A stretch of 64,000 nucleotides of DNA from a bacterium (GTDB lineage Bacteria > Bacteroidota > Ignavibacteria > SZUA-365). The position numbers and the translations under genes are program-made. This document shows, piece after piece, positions 5,217 through 10,491 of this stretch. The stretch is taken from the NCBI GenBank assembly GCA_020444325.1, contig JAHLLD010000010.1:1-64000 (forward strand), given 5' to 3'. Below the pieces are notes generated by a model. That model made no database searches. It had not been told where the DNA came from and was given only the letters and a program-made list of their open reading frames with translations. How positions within the stretch are numbered: position 1 is the first letter of the stretch; each line of letters begins with the position of its first letter.

Positions 5217-6779
5217 CTACGATTCAGCAACCTGACGCACGACGTCGATCACGGTGCCGTCAACCCATTTGATGGCGGCGATGATATTGTCATTGAACTG
5301 CGGCTTGTCTGGCACACCGCCACAGATGCCTTCCACCTCTTCCTTGATCTCATCGATACTCCGAATCGGCAGCCCAGAATTTTTTGTGGCCTCGATCAAA
5401 TCCTGTCTGAGTGGATTGATGGCGATGCCGCGTTCGGTGACGATCACATCAATCAGTTCACCGGGACCACAGAGCGTCGTAACCTCATCGACAATCACCG
5501 GAATGCGATCCCGGAAACTGGGAATCGGGAGGATGGTGCATTTCGAGAACAGGCAATTCTGCCATCCACCAATCCCGTGCAGCAGTCGTCCGTCACTGTG
5601 CGTGACGACGTTCGCGTTGAAATGTGTGTCGACCTCGGTCGCGCCGAGTACGACGACGTCGAGCATGGATGCGATGTTCCCCTTGTTGTGATAGTTGTAC
5701 GAAACAAAGGGATTGGTGTGAATGTGTCGCGGATTGTCACGCATGGAGGCTACGCCGGCAAGATCAAAAGTCTGGCCATCGAGGATGTAGTCAGTGAGTC
5801 CCTCCTCGAGCATGTCAACGAGATAGCGCGTGCTTCCACCGCGCACGAAACGCGCGCGGATATTTTTCTCGCGCATCATGTCGCGCAGAAATATCGCAAA
5901 TGCCAGCGATGTGCCACCGGCACCGGCCTGGAATGAAAAACCGTCTTTCAGGATGCCTGCTGCTTCGACAAAACGCGCGGTCAGTTCCGCAATCAGGAGG
6001 CGGTCGGGACTCTTCGTGATGTTCGTCGTCCCGCTCACGATTTTTTCCGGCTCGCCGATCTTATCCATCACGACGACATAGTCAACGTGGTTACCCATGA
6101 TCTGCCAGGGTACGCAGGGAAACGGCACGAGATTATCGGTCACCACGATGACGCGGTCCGCATACTGCGCATCGGCCAGCGCGAAACCGAGTCCCCCGCA
6201 GGCGGAAGGACCCTGGACGCCATTGCAGTTGCCGAAAGGGTCGGATGTCGGTGCCGCAATGACGGCGATGTCGATATGCACTTCTCCGTCCTGCACCGCC
6301 TGGTAACGTCCCCCGTGGGAACGCAGCACCCCGGTTCCACGCATTTTCCCCTCTGAGGCGTAGGCGCCGAGGGGACCGTTCATGGAACCCTCGATGTGAT
6401 GCAGCACCCCACTCTCGAGATGGCGAATCATGGGTTCGTGACAGGGGAAGGATGCAGAGGGGAACCATCGCAGGTCTTTCACTCCCAGTTCCGCGGCGGC
6501 ATCGAACACCTGGTTGGCCACGAGGTCGCCGTTGCGGAAGTGGTGGTGCGAAGAAATGGTCATACCGTCGCGCAGTCCGGCACGCTCCAGCGCGGTCTTC
6601 AAATCTGCGACGACCTTGTTGCCATCCGCGGGGTAATCCGCGCAGCGGCTGATCAGAGGAGCGGTCTTGCGTCCTGAAGGCACATGTGCGCCCACACCCT
6701 TGTACGGGATGGCCGTCTCCCCGTTAATCTGAGTCGGGACCAGGCGTCCCGCTGCATTGCGCTGCAGATCATTGCTCAT
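5217..6779 (-). CDS. citF: Citrate lyase alpha subunit (citrate CoA-transferase)
   Basis: CitF transfers the acyl carrier thioester from acetyl-ACP to citrate, giving citryl-ACP for cleavage by CitE. The protein (520 aa from the chosen start) reads as CitF throughout: GVGAHVPSGRKTAPL near the start, a central FQAGAGGTSLA CoA-transferase glycine motif, and FVRGGSTRYLVDMLE. The start at 6779 (MSNDLQ) is chosen because GGAGA lies about 8 bases upstream. The frame is open a little further, to 6806. It overlaps the end of the citD-citE fusion by 11 bases, so the two are translationally coupled. No citC, citX or citG needed for prosthetic-group loading lie nearby. Direction of use (citrate breakdown or acetyl-CoA supply) cannot be told from sequence. 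Confidence 0.92.
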   Translation of the reverse strand: MSNDLQRNAAGRLVPTQINGETAIPYKGVGAHVPSGRKTAPLISRCADYPADGNKVVADLKTALERAGLRDGMTISSHHHFRNGDLVANQVFDAAAELGVKDLRWFPSASFPCHEPMIRHLESGVLHHIEGSMNGPLGAYASEGKMRGTGVLRSHGGRYQAVQDGEVHIDIAVIAAPTSDPFGNCNGVQGPSACGGLGFALADAQYADRVIVVTDNLVPFPCVPWQIMGNHVDYVVVMDKIGEPEKIVSGTTNITKSPDRLLIAELTARFVEAAGILKDGFSFQAGAGGTSLAFAIFLRDMMREKNIRARFVRGGSTRYLVDMLEEGLTDYILDGQTFDLAGVASMRDNPRHIHTNPFVSYNYHNKGNIASMLDVVVLGATEVDTHFNANVVTHSDGRLLHGIGGWQNCLFSKCTILPIPSFRDRIPVIVDEVTTLCGPGELIDVIVTERGIAINPLRQDLIEATKNSGLPIRSIDEIKEEVEGICGGVPDKPQFNDNIIAAIKWVDGTVIDVVRQVAES

Positions 6780-7986
6780 CAGGCGTCTCCTTCCAGTCAT
6801 TTTCAAGCAAGCCGGACATGATTGCGAGGCGGATACTGCGCTGAGCCCGTTTGACCACAGGGGGATCGATCATCTTCGATCCCAGGGAAACCACACCGAG
6901 TCCCTGACGCTCGGCATCGTCGAAAGCGAGAACGATGCGCTTCGCCTTCTCTATCTCCGCGTCGGAGGGGGCGAAGCCCCGGTGCACGACGGGAATCTGG
7001 CGGGGATGGATGCAGCCCTTGCCGTCGAATCCCAGCGCCTTCGCTTCGAGTACGCTGGTGAAAAGTCCGTCCATATCCGTGACATCGCTGAACACGGTAT
7101 CAATGGCCTGCACTCCCGCCGCTCGTGCAGCGTTGAGCACGGCACCCCGCATCCAGGCGCTTTCCTTCCCTTCCAGCGTCCGTTCCGCTCCGATGTCGGC
7201 TGTGTAATCCTCGAGTCCGATGGCCAGAGCAACAACCGAGGGTGAAGCGCATGCAATACTGTATGCTTCGATCGCACCTTTTGCGCTTTCGATAATGGGC
7301 ATGAGATAGATTTCGTATGCGCTCCCGGCGCCATCCTGGAGTCTCCGGATATGCGCGGCGGCTTCGGTCACCTGGGCAGCGCTCTCAACTTTCGGGAGCA
7401 GAATAAGATCCGGATGCTGCGGGACGATGGCATCGAGATCCTCGAGTCCCAGCGGCAACTGGTTGATACGCACCATCCGCTCGGCGGCCCCGAAGTCCAC
7501 CGCACGCAGTGCGTTCCGCACGAGGATGCGCGCTGCGTCCTTTTCCGACGAGGCAACGGAGTCTTCGAGATCGAGAATGAGTCCATCTGCGCCATGCACG
7601 CAGGCATTGATCGCGAGTTTCGGATCATTGCCCGGGAGATACAGTCGGGATCTCCGGAAGCGGTCCCGGACCGACCCCGTCCCCTGCACCCTGGCCGGCG
7701 GCAGCCAGCCTGTTCCATCAACGCCGTTCAGACGACGGATTGCAGTCTCGAAGCGTGCGGCAATCGTGTATGGCAGCGCACCGCTGTCTTCCACACGAAC
7801 ATTAACGCCGTCGAGCTTGAAAAAACTGATCAGCTCCTCGAGCAACGCCCGGTTCGCACGTCCGTAGAGCACATCCACCTTGCTTTGCATTTCAATGCGG
7901 ACACCGCTCCCTCCGGTCTCTGTGATCTCGACGAGACAATCCGAGCGCACTCCCCGGCCCGATCGTCCTGCTACAGCTCTGTTCAT
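6769..7986 (-). CDS. Fused citrate lyase acyl carrier protein and beta subunit (CitD-CitE)
   Basis: Residues 1-~90 match the citrate lyase gamma subunit (acyl carrier CitD). The start MNRAVAG resembles the CitD N-terminus, Ser15 in the VRSDC context sits where the phosphoribosyl-dephospho-CoA arm attaches, and DSGALPYTIAARFE matches the conserved DKGALDC..RAR block. From ~108 onward is CitE, the citryl-ACP oxaloacetate-lyase of the HpcH/HpaI aldolase fold (SRLYLPGNDPK, DLEDSV, LPKVES, GKGCIHPRQIPVVH). In most bacteria citD and citE are separate genes, so this fusion fixes carrier and lyase one to one. The start at 7986 follows GGAAGG. It is upstream of and overlaps citF. Confidence 0.88.
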   Translation of the reverse strand: MNRAVAGRSGRGVRSDCLVEITETGGSGVRIEMQSKVDVLYGRANRALLEELISFFKLDGVNVRVEDSGALPYTIAARFETAIRRLNGVDGTGWLPPARVQGTGSVRDRFRRSRLYLPGNDPKLAINACVHGADGLILDLEDSVASSEKDAARILVRNALRAVDFGAAERMVRINQLPLGLEDLDAIVPQHPDLILLPKVESAAQVTEAAAHIRRLQDGAGSAYEIYLMPIIESAKGAIEAYSIACASPSVVALAIGLEDYTADIGAERTLEGKESAWMRGAVLNAARAAGVQAIDTVFSDVTDMDGLFTSVLEAKALGFDGKGCIHPRQIPVVHRGFAPSDAEIEKAKRIVLAFDDAERQGLGVVSLGSKMIDPPVVKRAQRSIRLAIMSGLLENDWKETPDEQ

Positions 7987-8152
7987 GCTACCTTCCGATC
8001 ATTGGTGGCGATGGTGACCTCCCTCCGGCCCGTCATATGCCCCTGCAATATACGCAACAGCGCTCTTATCCCCTTCCCTGTGCGGGTGAGCCCCTTTTGC
8101 GAAACTTTTTACCACGGCAACATTGTTCTTCAAGTGAACTTTGCTCACAATC
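7987..8152. promoter_or_regulatory. Divergent intergenic region between citrate lyase and cobalamin-sensor genes
   Basis: These 166 bases separate the starts of two oppositely transcribed units and must hold both promoters. No convincing riboswitch, long inverted repeat or recognisable operator was seen. An A/T-rich stretch around 8096-8125 is the most promoter-like part for the plus-strand unit. The arrangement makes it a natural place to look for light- or B12-dependent control of citrate lyase. Confidence 0.45.
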
Positions 8153-8599
8153 ATGCAAAACACCATGCCCATGGAAGCCGTCGCAGAACCACTATCGTTC
8201 GACGCCATTGCGGACGCCGATCTGGCAGCGTTTCATCGCAATCGTGAGAAAATGACCACGGCCGTGTGTGACCGTATCGCACACGCATCGAATTTTGAGG
8301 AAATTGCCACTGACCCGGTGAAGACCCGGATCGCGCATGAAAGCGTGCGCATATTCATCGAGAATTTTTATGCGACCGCGAAATACCGCCTTCCCGCCGC
8401 GCTGCTTGAGTATCTCGACTGGCTTCGGGGGTATCTTGCAAGCAGGGAATTCCCGGCAAACTTTCTTCCGCTTATGCTTGCATCACTGAAAATCGCGACG
8501 CATGCCTTCATGGAACACAACAACTGCAATGACATTGCCGCTGTCATCTCGGATCTGCGGCGCAGGGAAAGCAAACTTATGGGAGGTGAAGCAGCATGA
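8153..8599 (+). CDS. Small helical protein, partner of the cobalamin-binding sensor
   Basis: I do not recognise a named family with certainty. The 148-residue product looks all-helical, without signal peptide or membrane segment, and is rich in charged residues. The middle part (VRIFIENFYATAKYRL through WLRGYLA) resembles the N-terminal helical sensor domains of the RsbR/globin-like kind, but no heme-binding or catalytic signature is clear. Its stop overlaps the next start (ATGA), so it is coupled to the B12-binding gene and is probably its structural partner or the split-off sensory half. An in-frame TTG at 8141 and ATGs at 8165 and 8171 are alternative starts. None has a strong ribosome binding site. 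Confidence 0.6.
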   Translation: MQNTMPMEAVAEPLSFDAIADADLAAFHRNREKMTTAVCDRIAHASNFEEIATDPVKTRIAHESVRIFIENFYATAKYRLPAALLEYLDWLRGYLASREFPANFLPLMLASLKIATHAFMEHNNCNDIAAVISDLRRRESKLMGGEAA

Positions 8600-9240
8600 G
8601 TGTCCAACCGCAAATGGAAACGTTCATCAATTGTCTGGAAGCCGGTGACCGGCGGCGCTGTTTCAGGCTCATCCAGGAATGGGAGCAGCAGAAGCTCTCC
8701 GATGAACAGCTGTACACGGATATCCTCATCCCTTCGCTGATCTTTATCGGTACGGCCTGGGAAAGCAACCGCCATGGGATCGTCGAAGAACATGTCGCCA
8801 CCCAGATCATCAAATCGATCGTGGCGAGCAAGGCCGTCACGCTGACTCCGAGACGTGACCTGGGAAAAACGGCGATGGTCGGTTGTGTGCCGAACGAGCA
8901 CCATGAGATCGGATCGATGCTTCTGGCGAACATGCTCGAATCGGAGGGTTGGAAAGTATACCTGTACGGCAGTTCCGTACCTCAGCAGGAACTGGTCAAG
9001 TCGGCCACGAACATGAAACCCGACCTGATCTGCCTGACCATGAAATCCATCGGCTGCCTTGAATCCACACTCCAGCTCCTCGTTGCGATTCGTCGCGACC
9101 TCCCCGGTACGAAAATCATGCTGGGCGGCATGCATATCCCGTCCGTACGTGCCATCCTGAGTGAACATGTAGACATCCTCGCCGACAATTTCATCGACGG
9201 CATCAAACAGGCGGAAATGCTGGCTGGCACATCCACGTAA
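8596..9240 (+). CDS. Stand-alone cobalamin-binding sensor, CarH/LitR-like without DNA-binding domain
   Basis: The 214-residue soluble protein has the two-part layout of B12-binding modules: a four-helix cap (1-~80) and a Rossmann-like cobalamin domain (~92-210). The cap carries Trp55-x9-Glu65-His66, the signature of adenosylcobalamin photoreceptors such as CarH/LitR, where these residues cover the upper axial ligand. The cobalamin domain has E101-x-H103-x-x-G106 in place of DxHxxG, with His103 the presumed lower ligand, plus LGG at 176-178. The N-terminal MerR helix-turn-helix normally fused in CarH is missing, and no methyltransferase partner is adjacent. It could be a light/B12 sensor acting through protein contacts, or a corrinoid carrier. 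It is coupled to the preceding gene by ATGA overlap. Confidence 0.8.
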   Translation: MSVQPQMETFINCLEAGDRRRCFRLIQEWEQQKLSDEQLYTDILIPSLIFIGTAWESNRHGIVEEHVATQIIKSIVASKAVTLTPRRDLGKTAMVGCVPNEHHEIGSMLLANMLESEGWKVYLYGSSVPQQELVKSATNMKPDLICLTMKSIGCLESTLQLLVAIRRDLPGTKIMLGGMHIPSVRAILSEHVDILADNFIDGIKQAEMLAGTST

Positions 9241-9262
9241 CCCGAACTGCATGTACGAAATA

Positions 9263-9292
9263 AAAAAAGGATCCCGCGAAGGATCCTTTTTT
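9263..9292. terminator. Bidirectional intrinsic terminator
   Basis: A 12-bp perfect stem (AAAAAAGGATCC at 9263-9274 with GGATCCTTTTTT at 9281-9292) encloses a 6-base loop. The A and T tracts on either side let it end transcription of both the plus-strand cobalamin unit and the convergent isocitrate dehydrogenase gene. Confidence 0.9.
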
Positions 9293-9309: not shown

Positions 9310-10491
9310 TCAGAGCTGTGCGATCACGGCGTCGGTAATCTGCTGCGTGTTGGCAGCACCCTGTTCGATCACCTGCGCGCCACCCGGCAGCTTCATCATG
9401 TCATAACTGCGAACCTTGCCCTCCGCGATGACGGTGGAGATCGCCTTGCGTATCCGCTCGGATTTCTCCGTTTCGCCTATATGATCGAGCATCATGCAGG
9501 CACTGAGCATCATGGCGATGGGATTGACGATTGAAGGATTCAGCGTTTCATACTTCGGCGCGGAACCGTGTGTCGGTTCAAATACCGCCACATCCTTGCC
9601 GATGTTCGCGCTGCAGGCAAAACCGAGTCCGCCAACGAGTCCGGCAAATCCGTCGGAAACGATATCCCCGAACATGTTTCCCGCGACAATCACACCGTAA
9701 TCTTCCGGATTTTTCGTAAGCCACATCATCTGTGCGTCAATGTTGGTCGACCATAGCTGAATGTCAGGGAAGCGCTTGCTGATCTCAGCGGCTTCGGCTT
9801 CCATCATTCCCGACGTCTCACGGATGACGTTGGGCTTTTCACATATGGTGACGGACCTGTACCCGTGCTTCTCCGCGTATTCAAATGCCGCCGTGACAAT
9901 GCGTCTGCAGTATTCGCGGGTGAAAATGCGAGTCGACACCGCGAGATCCTCACCCGGGACGTCGAGGAAGGCCCTGAAACGAGGGTGCGAGGCGAGGGCC
10001 TCACGCACGTTCTGCGGAGGATTGGTCCATTCCACGCCTGCATAGAGTCCCTGCGTATTCTGCCGGAAAATCACGACATCCACCAGTGGCTCCTCGAATC
10101 CGCCTTTCGCGTCTTTTCGAATGAAATTCAGCGGATTGTTCGGGAACGTCTGACAGGGACGAACGCAGATATCCAGGTCGAAATGCTGACGCATGGTGAC
10201 GATGGGACTGTAGTACACAAGTCCCTTGTCCTGCAGTTCCGGACTGAGCTCCGCGGCGGCTTTCGCCTTGGGCTTGGATGTGATGGCGCCGAAAAGACCA
10301 ATTTTGTGTTCGGCGAGCAGATCCACGGTGCGCTGCGGCAGGGGATTCCCCTCCTTGCACCAGAAATCCCAGCCGATATCGCCGTTGACATACTCCGCCT
10401 CGAAACCGGCCGCTTCGAGAACGCGAATTGCTTCCGGGAGCACGACTTTTCCGATCCCGTCGCCGGGCATGGCAACAATCGTACGTTTCAT
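9310..10491 (-). CDS. Isocitrate/isopropylmalate dehydrogenase family enzyme, probably isocitrate dehydrogenase
   Basis: This is an NAD(P)-dependent beta-decarboxylating dehydrogenase of 393 residues. Family marks include MPGDGIGKVV at the N-terminus, the substrate-arginine region MRQHFDLDICVRPCQ, the tyrosine/lysine region, NMFGDIVSDGFAGLVGG with the metal-binding aspartates, and the cofactor loop FEPTHGSAPKYE. Length and the presence of citrate lyase next door favour isocitrate over 3-isopropylmalate or homoisocitrate, and no leu genes are near. Cofactor choice was not resolved by eye. The ATG at 10491 is preferred over an in-frame GTG at 10497 because GAGGAAG lies at good distance. It converges with the cobalamin unit. 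Confidence 0.75.
   Translation of the reverse strand: MKRTIVAMPGDGIGKVVLPEAIRVLEAAGFEAEYVNGDIGWDFWCKEGNPLPQRTVDLLAEHKIGLFGAITSKPKAKAAAELSPELQDKGLVYYSPIVTMRQHFDLDICVRPCQTFPNNPLNFIRKDAKGGFEEPLVDVVIFRQNTQGLYAGVEWTNPPQNVREALASHPRFRAFLDVPGEDLAVSTRIFTREYCRRIVTAAFEYAEKHGYRSVTICEKPNVIRETSGMMEAEAAEISKRFPDIQLWSTNIDAQMMWLTKNPEDYGVIVAGNMFGDIVSDGFAGLVGGLGFACSANIGKDVAVFEPTHGSAPKYETLNPSIVNPIAMMLSACMMLDHIGETEKSERIRKAISTVIAEGKVRSYDMMKLPGGAQVIEQGAANTQQITDAVIAQL

Follow-up and report, generated by a model that had tools for sequence, protein, structure and literature searches.

A Probable Two-Gene Photocobilin-Type B12 Photoreceptor with a Divergent Globin Partner in an Ignavibacteria Genome

Introduction

The photocobilins, described through SasPcob and AbDPcob (PMC10979010), join a CarH-type B12 domain and a bilin-type globin in a single chain, with the W-x9-EH and E-x-H residues in the former and Asp270 as the biliverdin ligand in the latter. 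The same two domains, with the same W-x9-EH and E-x-H residues, are predicted for a pair of adjacent genes in a 64,000-nucleotide stretch of DNA from a bacterium of the Ignavibacteria (contig JAHLLD010000010.1), hereafter the window, and SasPcob is the best or nearly the best fold match for both halves of the pair. The pair differs from the photocobilins in that it consists of two polypeptides with the globin gene (ORF1) placed first, the residue at the Asp270 position is replaced (S, T or C), an output domain is lacking, and the B12 protein (ORF2) branches outside the photocobilin clade.

Several other systems share part of this composition. The photoglobin family (Schneider et al. 2022, as relayed in PMC10151467) likewise comprises, as far as that account goes, non-heme globins linked to B12-binding domains, whereas ORF1 is a stand-alone gene and has lost the C-x-Q-D motif. 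In the Myxococcales there are two-gene clusters of a globin and a B12-binding protein (BBAG-2), as a rule in genomes that also encode a heme oxygenase, and their globins bind biliverdin (PMC10151467). These resemble our pair in that a stand-alone globin gene is clustered with the gene of a B12-binding protein (here at 9/9 loci), but the pair belongs to a different phylum, its genes are coupled by an ATGA overlap, no FDBR was identified in its neighborhood, the RGMC motif is absent from the ORF1 alignment, and a search of 11 family genomes detected no PF01126 heme oxygenase, other enzyme classes being possible. CarH/LitR proteins have the AdoCbl-binding domain and adenosyl-pocket residues of ORF2, which in contrast possesses neither a MerR domain nor an equivalent of His132. 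AerR of Rhodobacter, according to the accessible parts of PMC5362033 and PMC6199135, is a B12 photoreceptor that has no DNA-binding domain and acts by protein contact, as would ORF2; no CrtJ partner was identified for the pair, which has a globin partner instead, and the structural match is weaker (Z 19.6). From these comparisons and the evidence below, we favor, with reasonable confidence, the reading that the pair is a two-gene (split) B12 photoreceptor of the photocobilin type, with a globin that is devoid of the main biliverdin ligand and an output that operates by protein contact.

Gene Organization

The two genes, located head to tail on the plus strand, are present as the original prediction had described them. 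ORF1 (8165..8599, +) is a predicted stand-alone bilin-type globin (photoglobin) of 144 aa, or 148 aa from ATG 8153, and ORF2 (8596..9240, +; 214 aa) a predicted CarH-type AdoCbl-binding photoreceptor protein that has no output domain. The stop codon of ORF1 and the start codon of ORF2 overlap in an ATGA (8596..8599, +), indicative of translational coupling, and this overlap, also part of the prediction, is kept at every locus (9/9: this genome and eight relatives). ATG 8165 appears better placed as the ORF1 start than ATG 8153, because the orthologues begin at that Met and because the distance to the promoter motif (see below) then fits, being 37 nt as compared with 35–48 in the other loci. 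Selection on both ORFs is purifying, with dN about 0.2–0.4 and dS >1.2, the latter near saturation.

To the left, across a gap of 166 bp counted from ATG 8153, the citrate lyase genes citDE (CitD-CitE fusion, gamma-beta; 6769..7986, −) and citF (alpha subunit; 5217..6806, −) diverge from the pair, both assigned with Pfam and NCBIfam. The acyl carrier CitD and CitE are fused here as one 405-aa protein, a fusion shared by 11/12 genomes of the family, with that of G003 in pieces, and by G012, which belongs to another family. On the right side, an isocitrate-dehydrogenase-like gene is convergent with ORF2. A perfect GGATCC hairpin with A and T runs on its flanks (9262..9292, not assigned to a strand), read from the sequence, lies between the two and is a probable bidirectional terminator; the terminator scan gave no flag at this position.

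The Globin Partner and the Question of Its Chromophore

ORF1 gave no significant match to Pfam, NCBIfam or PDB sequences, so that its identification needed profile–profile and fold comparison. B12 proteins of ~355 aa from other Bacteroidota families bear an additional N-terminal domain, which matches Pfam Phycobilisome (best 1e-7; 9/13 members) and can be aligned to the SasPcob globin that binds biliverdin. When the ORF1 profile was compared with these fused photoglobin domains using hhalign, a score of 38.5 over 107 columns was obtained (P 6e-6), as against a maximum of 24.7 in 200 column shuffles, 11.6 for the reversed profile and a value far below 38.5 for a helical-bundle control. In the reverse search, the photoglobin HMM found the ORF1 of one relative (G004) among whole genomes with E 4e-4. 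The AF2 model of ORF1 is helical and confident (pLDDT 87.7), and nearly all of its structural matches listed are bilin-binding globins, such as the bilin protein smURFP (Z 15.8) and the SasPcob globin domain (8j2x, residues 227–346; Z 14.8, rmsd 2.1 A, 119 residues), with which the sequence identity is only 14%. The models of ORF1 and ORF2 together account for the whole length of SasPcob, but as two proteins in reversed order. ORF1 is thus identified, on the strength of a predicted structure and of profile matches, as a globin of the photoglobin/phycobiliprotein type, one that is too diverged for detection by Pfam Phycobilisome and went unrecognised by every curated profile tried. The partner had originally been taken for a small, unassigned and novel helical protein; it is helical and ATGA-coupled, but its profile and fold matches to bilin-type globins show that it is not novel. 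Heme binding by ORF1 is not supported, the sole near-invariant His column being H117, which belongs to the helix that follows the proximal position and is replaced by V in one orthologue.

The ORF1–SasPcob alignment is gap-free around the bilin pocket and places E63-S64 of ORF1 (numbered from ATG 8153; 8339..8344, +) at the site of the biliverdin ligand Asp270. At the Asp270 position all nine ORF1 proteins have S, T or C, where the other photoglobins examined have D or H; the bilin motif C-x-Q-D / C-x-R-D is replaced by A-x-E-S/T/C in all nine, and they have no conserved Cys. Because the ligand is substituted throughout, ORF1 has probably lost biliverdin binding, and B12 alone would be the likely chromophore. 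As for the enzymes, the classical heme oxygenase PF01126, the HugZ-type DUF2470 and the phytochrome PHY domain gave no match in the family genomes searched, whereas hits were obtained in control genomes. PF01126 is equally missing from 19 genomes that encode fused photoglobins or proteins related to them, and its absence was therefore rejected as proof of bilin loss, being non-discriminating; as these fused photoglobins mostly bear the Asp, it is mainly the Asp substitution that argues for bilin loss.

If ORF1 still bound biliverdin or another bilin, the pair would be a dual-chromophore photocobilin in two polypeptides, sensing green and red light. We judge this unlikely, given the replacement of Asp/His by S/T/C in 9/9 proteins, the lack of a conserved Cys and the unmatched enzyme families, but a number of observations speak for it. 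The ORF1 fold is nearest to biliverdin-binding globins among the structural matches listed; W90 (8420..8422, +), which by alignment is the equivalent of SasPcob Trp296, a residue in contact with both corrin and bilin (PMC10979010), is invariant in 9/9; and E63, likewise invariant, stands next to the lost Asp and might substitute for it. AbPcob, with His at the Asp270 site, still binds about 20% biliverdin (PMC10979010), and the BBAG-2 globins bind it as stand-alone proteins (PMC10151467).

The fused photoglobin-B12 proteins raise the question of where their bilin, if any, comes from. They occur in the Bacteroidota genomes G117, G168, G199, G256, G194, G127, G244 and others, in which there is no PF01126 and, where searched, no match to DUF2470 or PHY either; the biliverdin-ligand Asp is mostly kept.

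The B12-Binding Protein

ORF2 matches the Pfam families B12-binding (7e-16) and B12-binding_2 (4e-8), and, as the original prediction had it, contains no MerR domain by Pfam, nor any other DNA-binding domain. CarH is its top NCBIfam profile, with a score far under the cut-off. The AF2 model (pLDDT 85.6) has its best structural match in residues 7–214 of SasPcob (Z 25.8, rmsd 1.9 A, 205 residues), where the sequence identity of the B12 domain is only 21%; the corresponding Z values are about 20 for CarH and 19.6 for AerR.

The residues expected of an AdoCbl sensor are all kept in ORF2, as judged by alignment, and are invariant in the 8 orthologues. These are G52-x-x-W55-x9-E65-H66 (8749..8793, +), comprising the adenosyl-stacking Trp and the EH motif, E101-x-H103 (8896..8904, +), the lower axial cobalt ligand corresponding to SasPcob His108, and G125-x3-P129 (8968..8982, +), the dimer-interface loop of the light signature (PMC11796333). 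In CarH, CtMerR and the photocobilins, the GxxW, EH, ExH and GxxxP residues stack on, hydrogen-bond or ligate AdoCbl (PMC11796333, PMC10979010, PMC10442372), and W, EH and GxxxP have been established experimentally as marks of photoresponsive cobalamin domains (PMC11796333). The W-x9-EH claim of the earlier analysis is thereby borne out (W55, E65 and H66), whereas its cobalamin-ligand motif ExHxxG stands only in part, the terminal glycine varying between G, A and P across the orthologues. Compared with the SignatureFinder signature of a light-responsive cobalamin domain, ORF2 has GxxW, EH and GxxxP and lacks the glycine of GxxH, a position occupied by N, D or E in the ORF2 family, with H103 itself invariant. 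The residue H132 of TtCarH, responsible for bis-His ligation in the light, corresponds to E56 in ORF2, and the light state must therefore differ from that of CarH; the photocobilins (SasPcob included) and CtMerR are likewise devoid of an H132 equivalent, and their light state is water-ligated. A cobalamin adenosyltransferase gene is present in 9/9 genomes with the pair. We infer from these features that ORF2 binds AdoCbl and responds to light, and the proposal of a CarH-type B12 photoreceptor domain that has no DNA-binding domain and is permanently paired with a small helical protein has computational support.

The pair might alternatively sense the availability of AdoCbl, or the redox or oxygen state, instead of light. 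AdoCbl binding alone shifts the oligomer state in CarH-type proteins, and no light-related genes were identified near the pair; with W, EH and GxxxP of the photoresponsive domains invariant, however, we consider this a rather improbable function.

The Intergenic Region and the Citrate Lyase Genes

A promoter-like motif, GAAACTTTTT-N13-TGTT (8101..8127, +), is found at 9/9 loci with a length of 27 (7 loci) or 26 (2) and stands 25–48 nt ahead of the annotated ORF1 start. We take it to resemble an ECF-sigma promoter. As a regulon marker the motif was of no use: a search of 1.26 Mb, 27% of the own genome, turned up no second copy, so that no regulon was seen. It was not found either in the 19-kb locus (L020) of a MerR-type CarH homologue (9335-10273, −) that the source genome also has. 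Facing the other direction, a CAATATA block (8046..8052, −; TATATTG on the minus strand) is the probable −10 region of citrate lyase. As CAATATA or AAATATA, this block is shared by all 8 loci at which citrate lyase adjoins the pair. In G008, where the lyase lies elsewhere, the block is missing and GAAACTTTTT-N13-TGTT is retained. The alignments thus give the pair a conserved promoter-like motif of its own and citrate lyase a separate promoter-like block.

The original prediction proposed that the pair could control citrate lyase, and with it central carbon metabolism. The divergent arrangement on which that idea drew proved to be conserved, since the lyase genes adjoin the pair in 8/9 genomes, and this adjacency is what could be expected of a light switch for them. 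They lie, however, 13 kb away from the pair in G008, and occur without it in the family genomes G003 and G007 and in G012 of another family; the conserved elements differ for the two directions, and neither protein has a DNA-binding domain. With separate promoter-like blocks and a lyase that exists without the pair, the idea that light controls citrate lyase lacks support, and we see little chance of it; by the evidence here, citrate lyase is not part of the module.

Distribution and Lineage of the Pair

ORF1 is present in nine of the 12 genomes of its GTDB family, and the ORF2 type in the same nine only (best hits <=3e-94; the remaining three genomes give no hit stronger than 3e-29). The co-inheritance is strict, both genes being together in nine family genomes and both missing in the other three. 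An ORF1 HMM run over 395 phylum genomes gave no more than weak matches outside the family, and a search of plasmids and viral contigs found no ORF1. ORF2 is a separate clade (support 100/99) in the maximum-likelihood tree, lying apart from the MerR-type proteins and outside a group (95/90) that unites the fused photocobilins with SasPcob/AbPcob and solo B12 proteins. On this tree, ORF2 is a deep lineage of its own and did not arise recently from a local fused gene; its placement gives no support to the idea that it descends from a Bacteroidota photocobilin that was split recently.

The solo CarH-type B12 proteins of other families of the class (210–240 aa; L026-L046) have no globin gene, and many of their genes are directly downstream of a gene for a ~215-aa membrane protein, PAP2-like in appearance. 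The fused photoglobin-B12 gene of G225 (L086 1501-2564) is frameshifted inside the B12 helical domain, and was rejected as a second split example, being a frameshift within a fused gene.

Two further readings carry less weight. ORF1 could belong to a different type of non-heme sensor globin (RsbR or PucR-like) and have come to lie beside a B12 protein by accident; the RsbR globins, being the outgroup of the photoglobins and so alike in fold, speak for this, but the strict co-inheritance, the ATGA overlap and the direct profile match of ORF1 to photoglobin domains fused to B12 domains make this very unlikely. The notion that ORF2 is the corrinoid protein of a methyltransferase system, with ORF1 as its accessory, is hardly credible: NCBIfam profiles of MtgC/MtbC-type corrinoid proteins show weak similarity to ORF2, but the CarH profile scores higher, the best corrinoid protein of that kind reaches 21.2 in the structural comparison against 25.8 for SasPcob, the photoreceptor residues are invariant, and no methyltransferase was identified near the pair in neighborhoods whose annotation relied solely on similarity to proteins of the window.

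Proposed Mechanism

For the pair, computation established the two folds and their homology, showed that the genes are inherited together and translationally coupled, and found the B12 site conserved; on that basis a split photocobilin-type receptor could work as follows. H103 of ORF2 would bind AdoCbl in the base-off/His-on state, with W55 stacked on the adenosyl group, while E65-H66 would lie at the interface of the dimer. ORF1 would dock on ORF2 as the globin and B12 domains of SasPcob do on each other; this contact, and the absence of a bilin, we infer. With a globin that has no main biliverdin ligand, B12 would be the only likely chromophore. Green or blue light would then break the Co–C bond, and the departure of the adenosyl group would shift the helical bundle and alter the dimer, the ORF1–ORF2 contact, or both. 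Because neither ORF1 nor ORF2 has an output domain, the signal would be passed on by protein contact. More tentatively, the pair may be a bilin-free two-subunit photocobilin in which the globin is a diffusible output subunit, bound or released according to the AdoCbl photostate, its expression driven by a dedicated promoter, in a Bacteroidota/Ignavibacteria lineage that is not known to make biliverdin.

Significance

The pair is probably a variant of known photoreceptors rather than wholly new, namely a two-gene, bilin-free relative of the photocobilins. These are known as single-chain proteins, of which the pair would be a natural two-gene form, and such a form would let the globin–B12 contact be studied as a reversible protein–protein interaction; a possible use of the pair is as a two-component optogenetic tool. 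With the bilin ligand lost, this form would also reveal a function of the globin besides bilin carriage, which bears on the diversification of the phycobiliprotein-like globins. If the more tentative reading is true, a formerly bilin-carrying globin has become the output of a B12 light switch.
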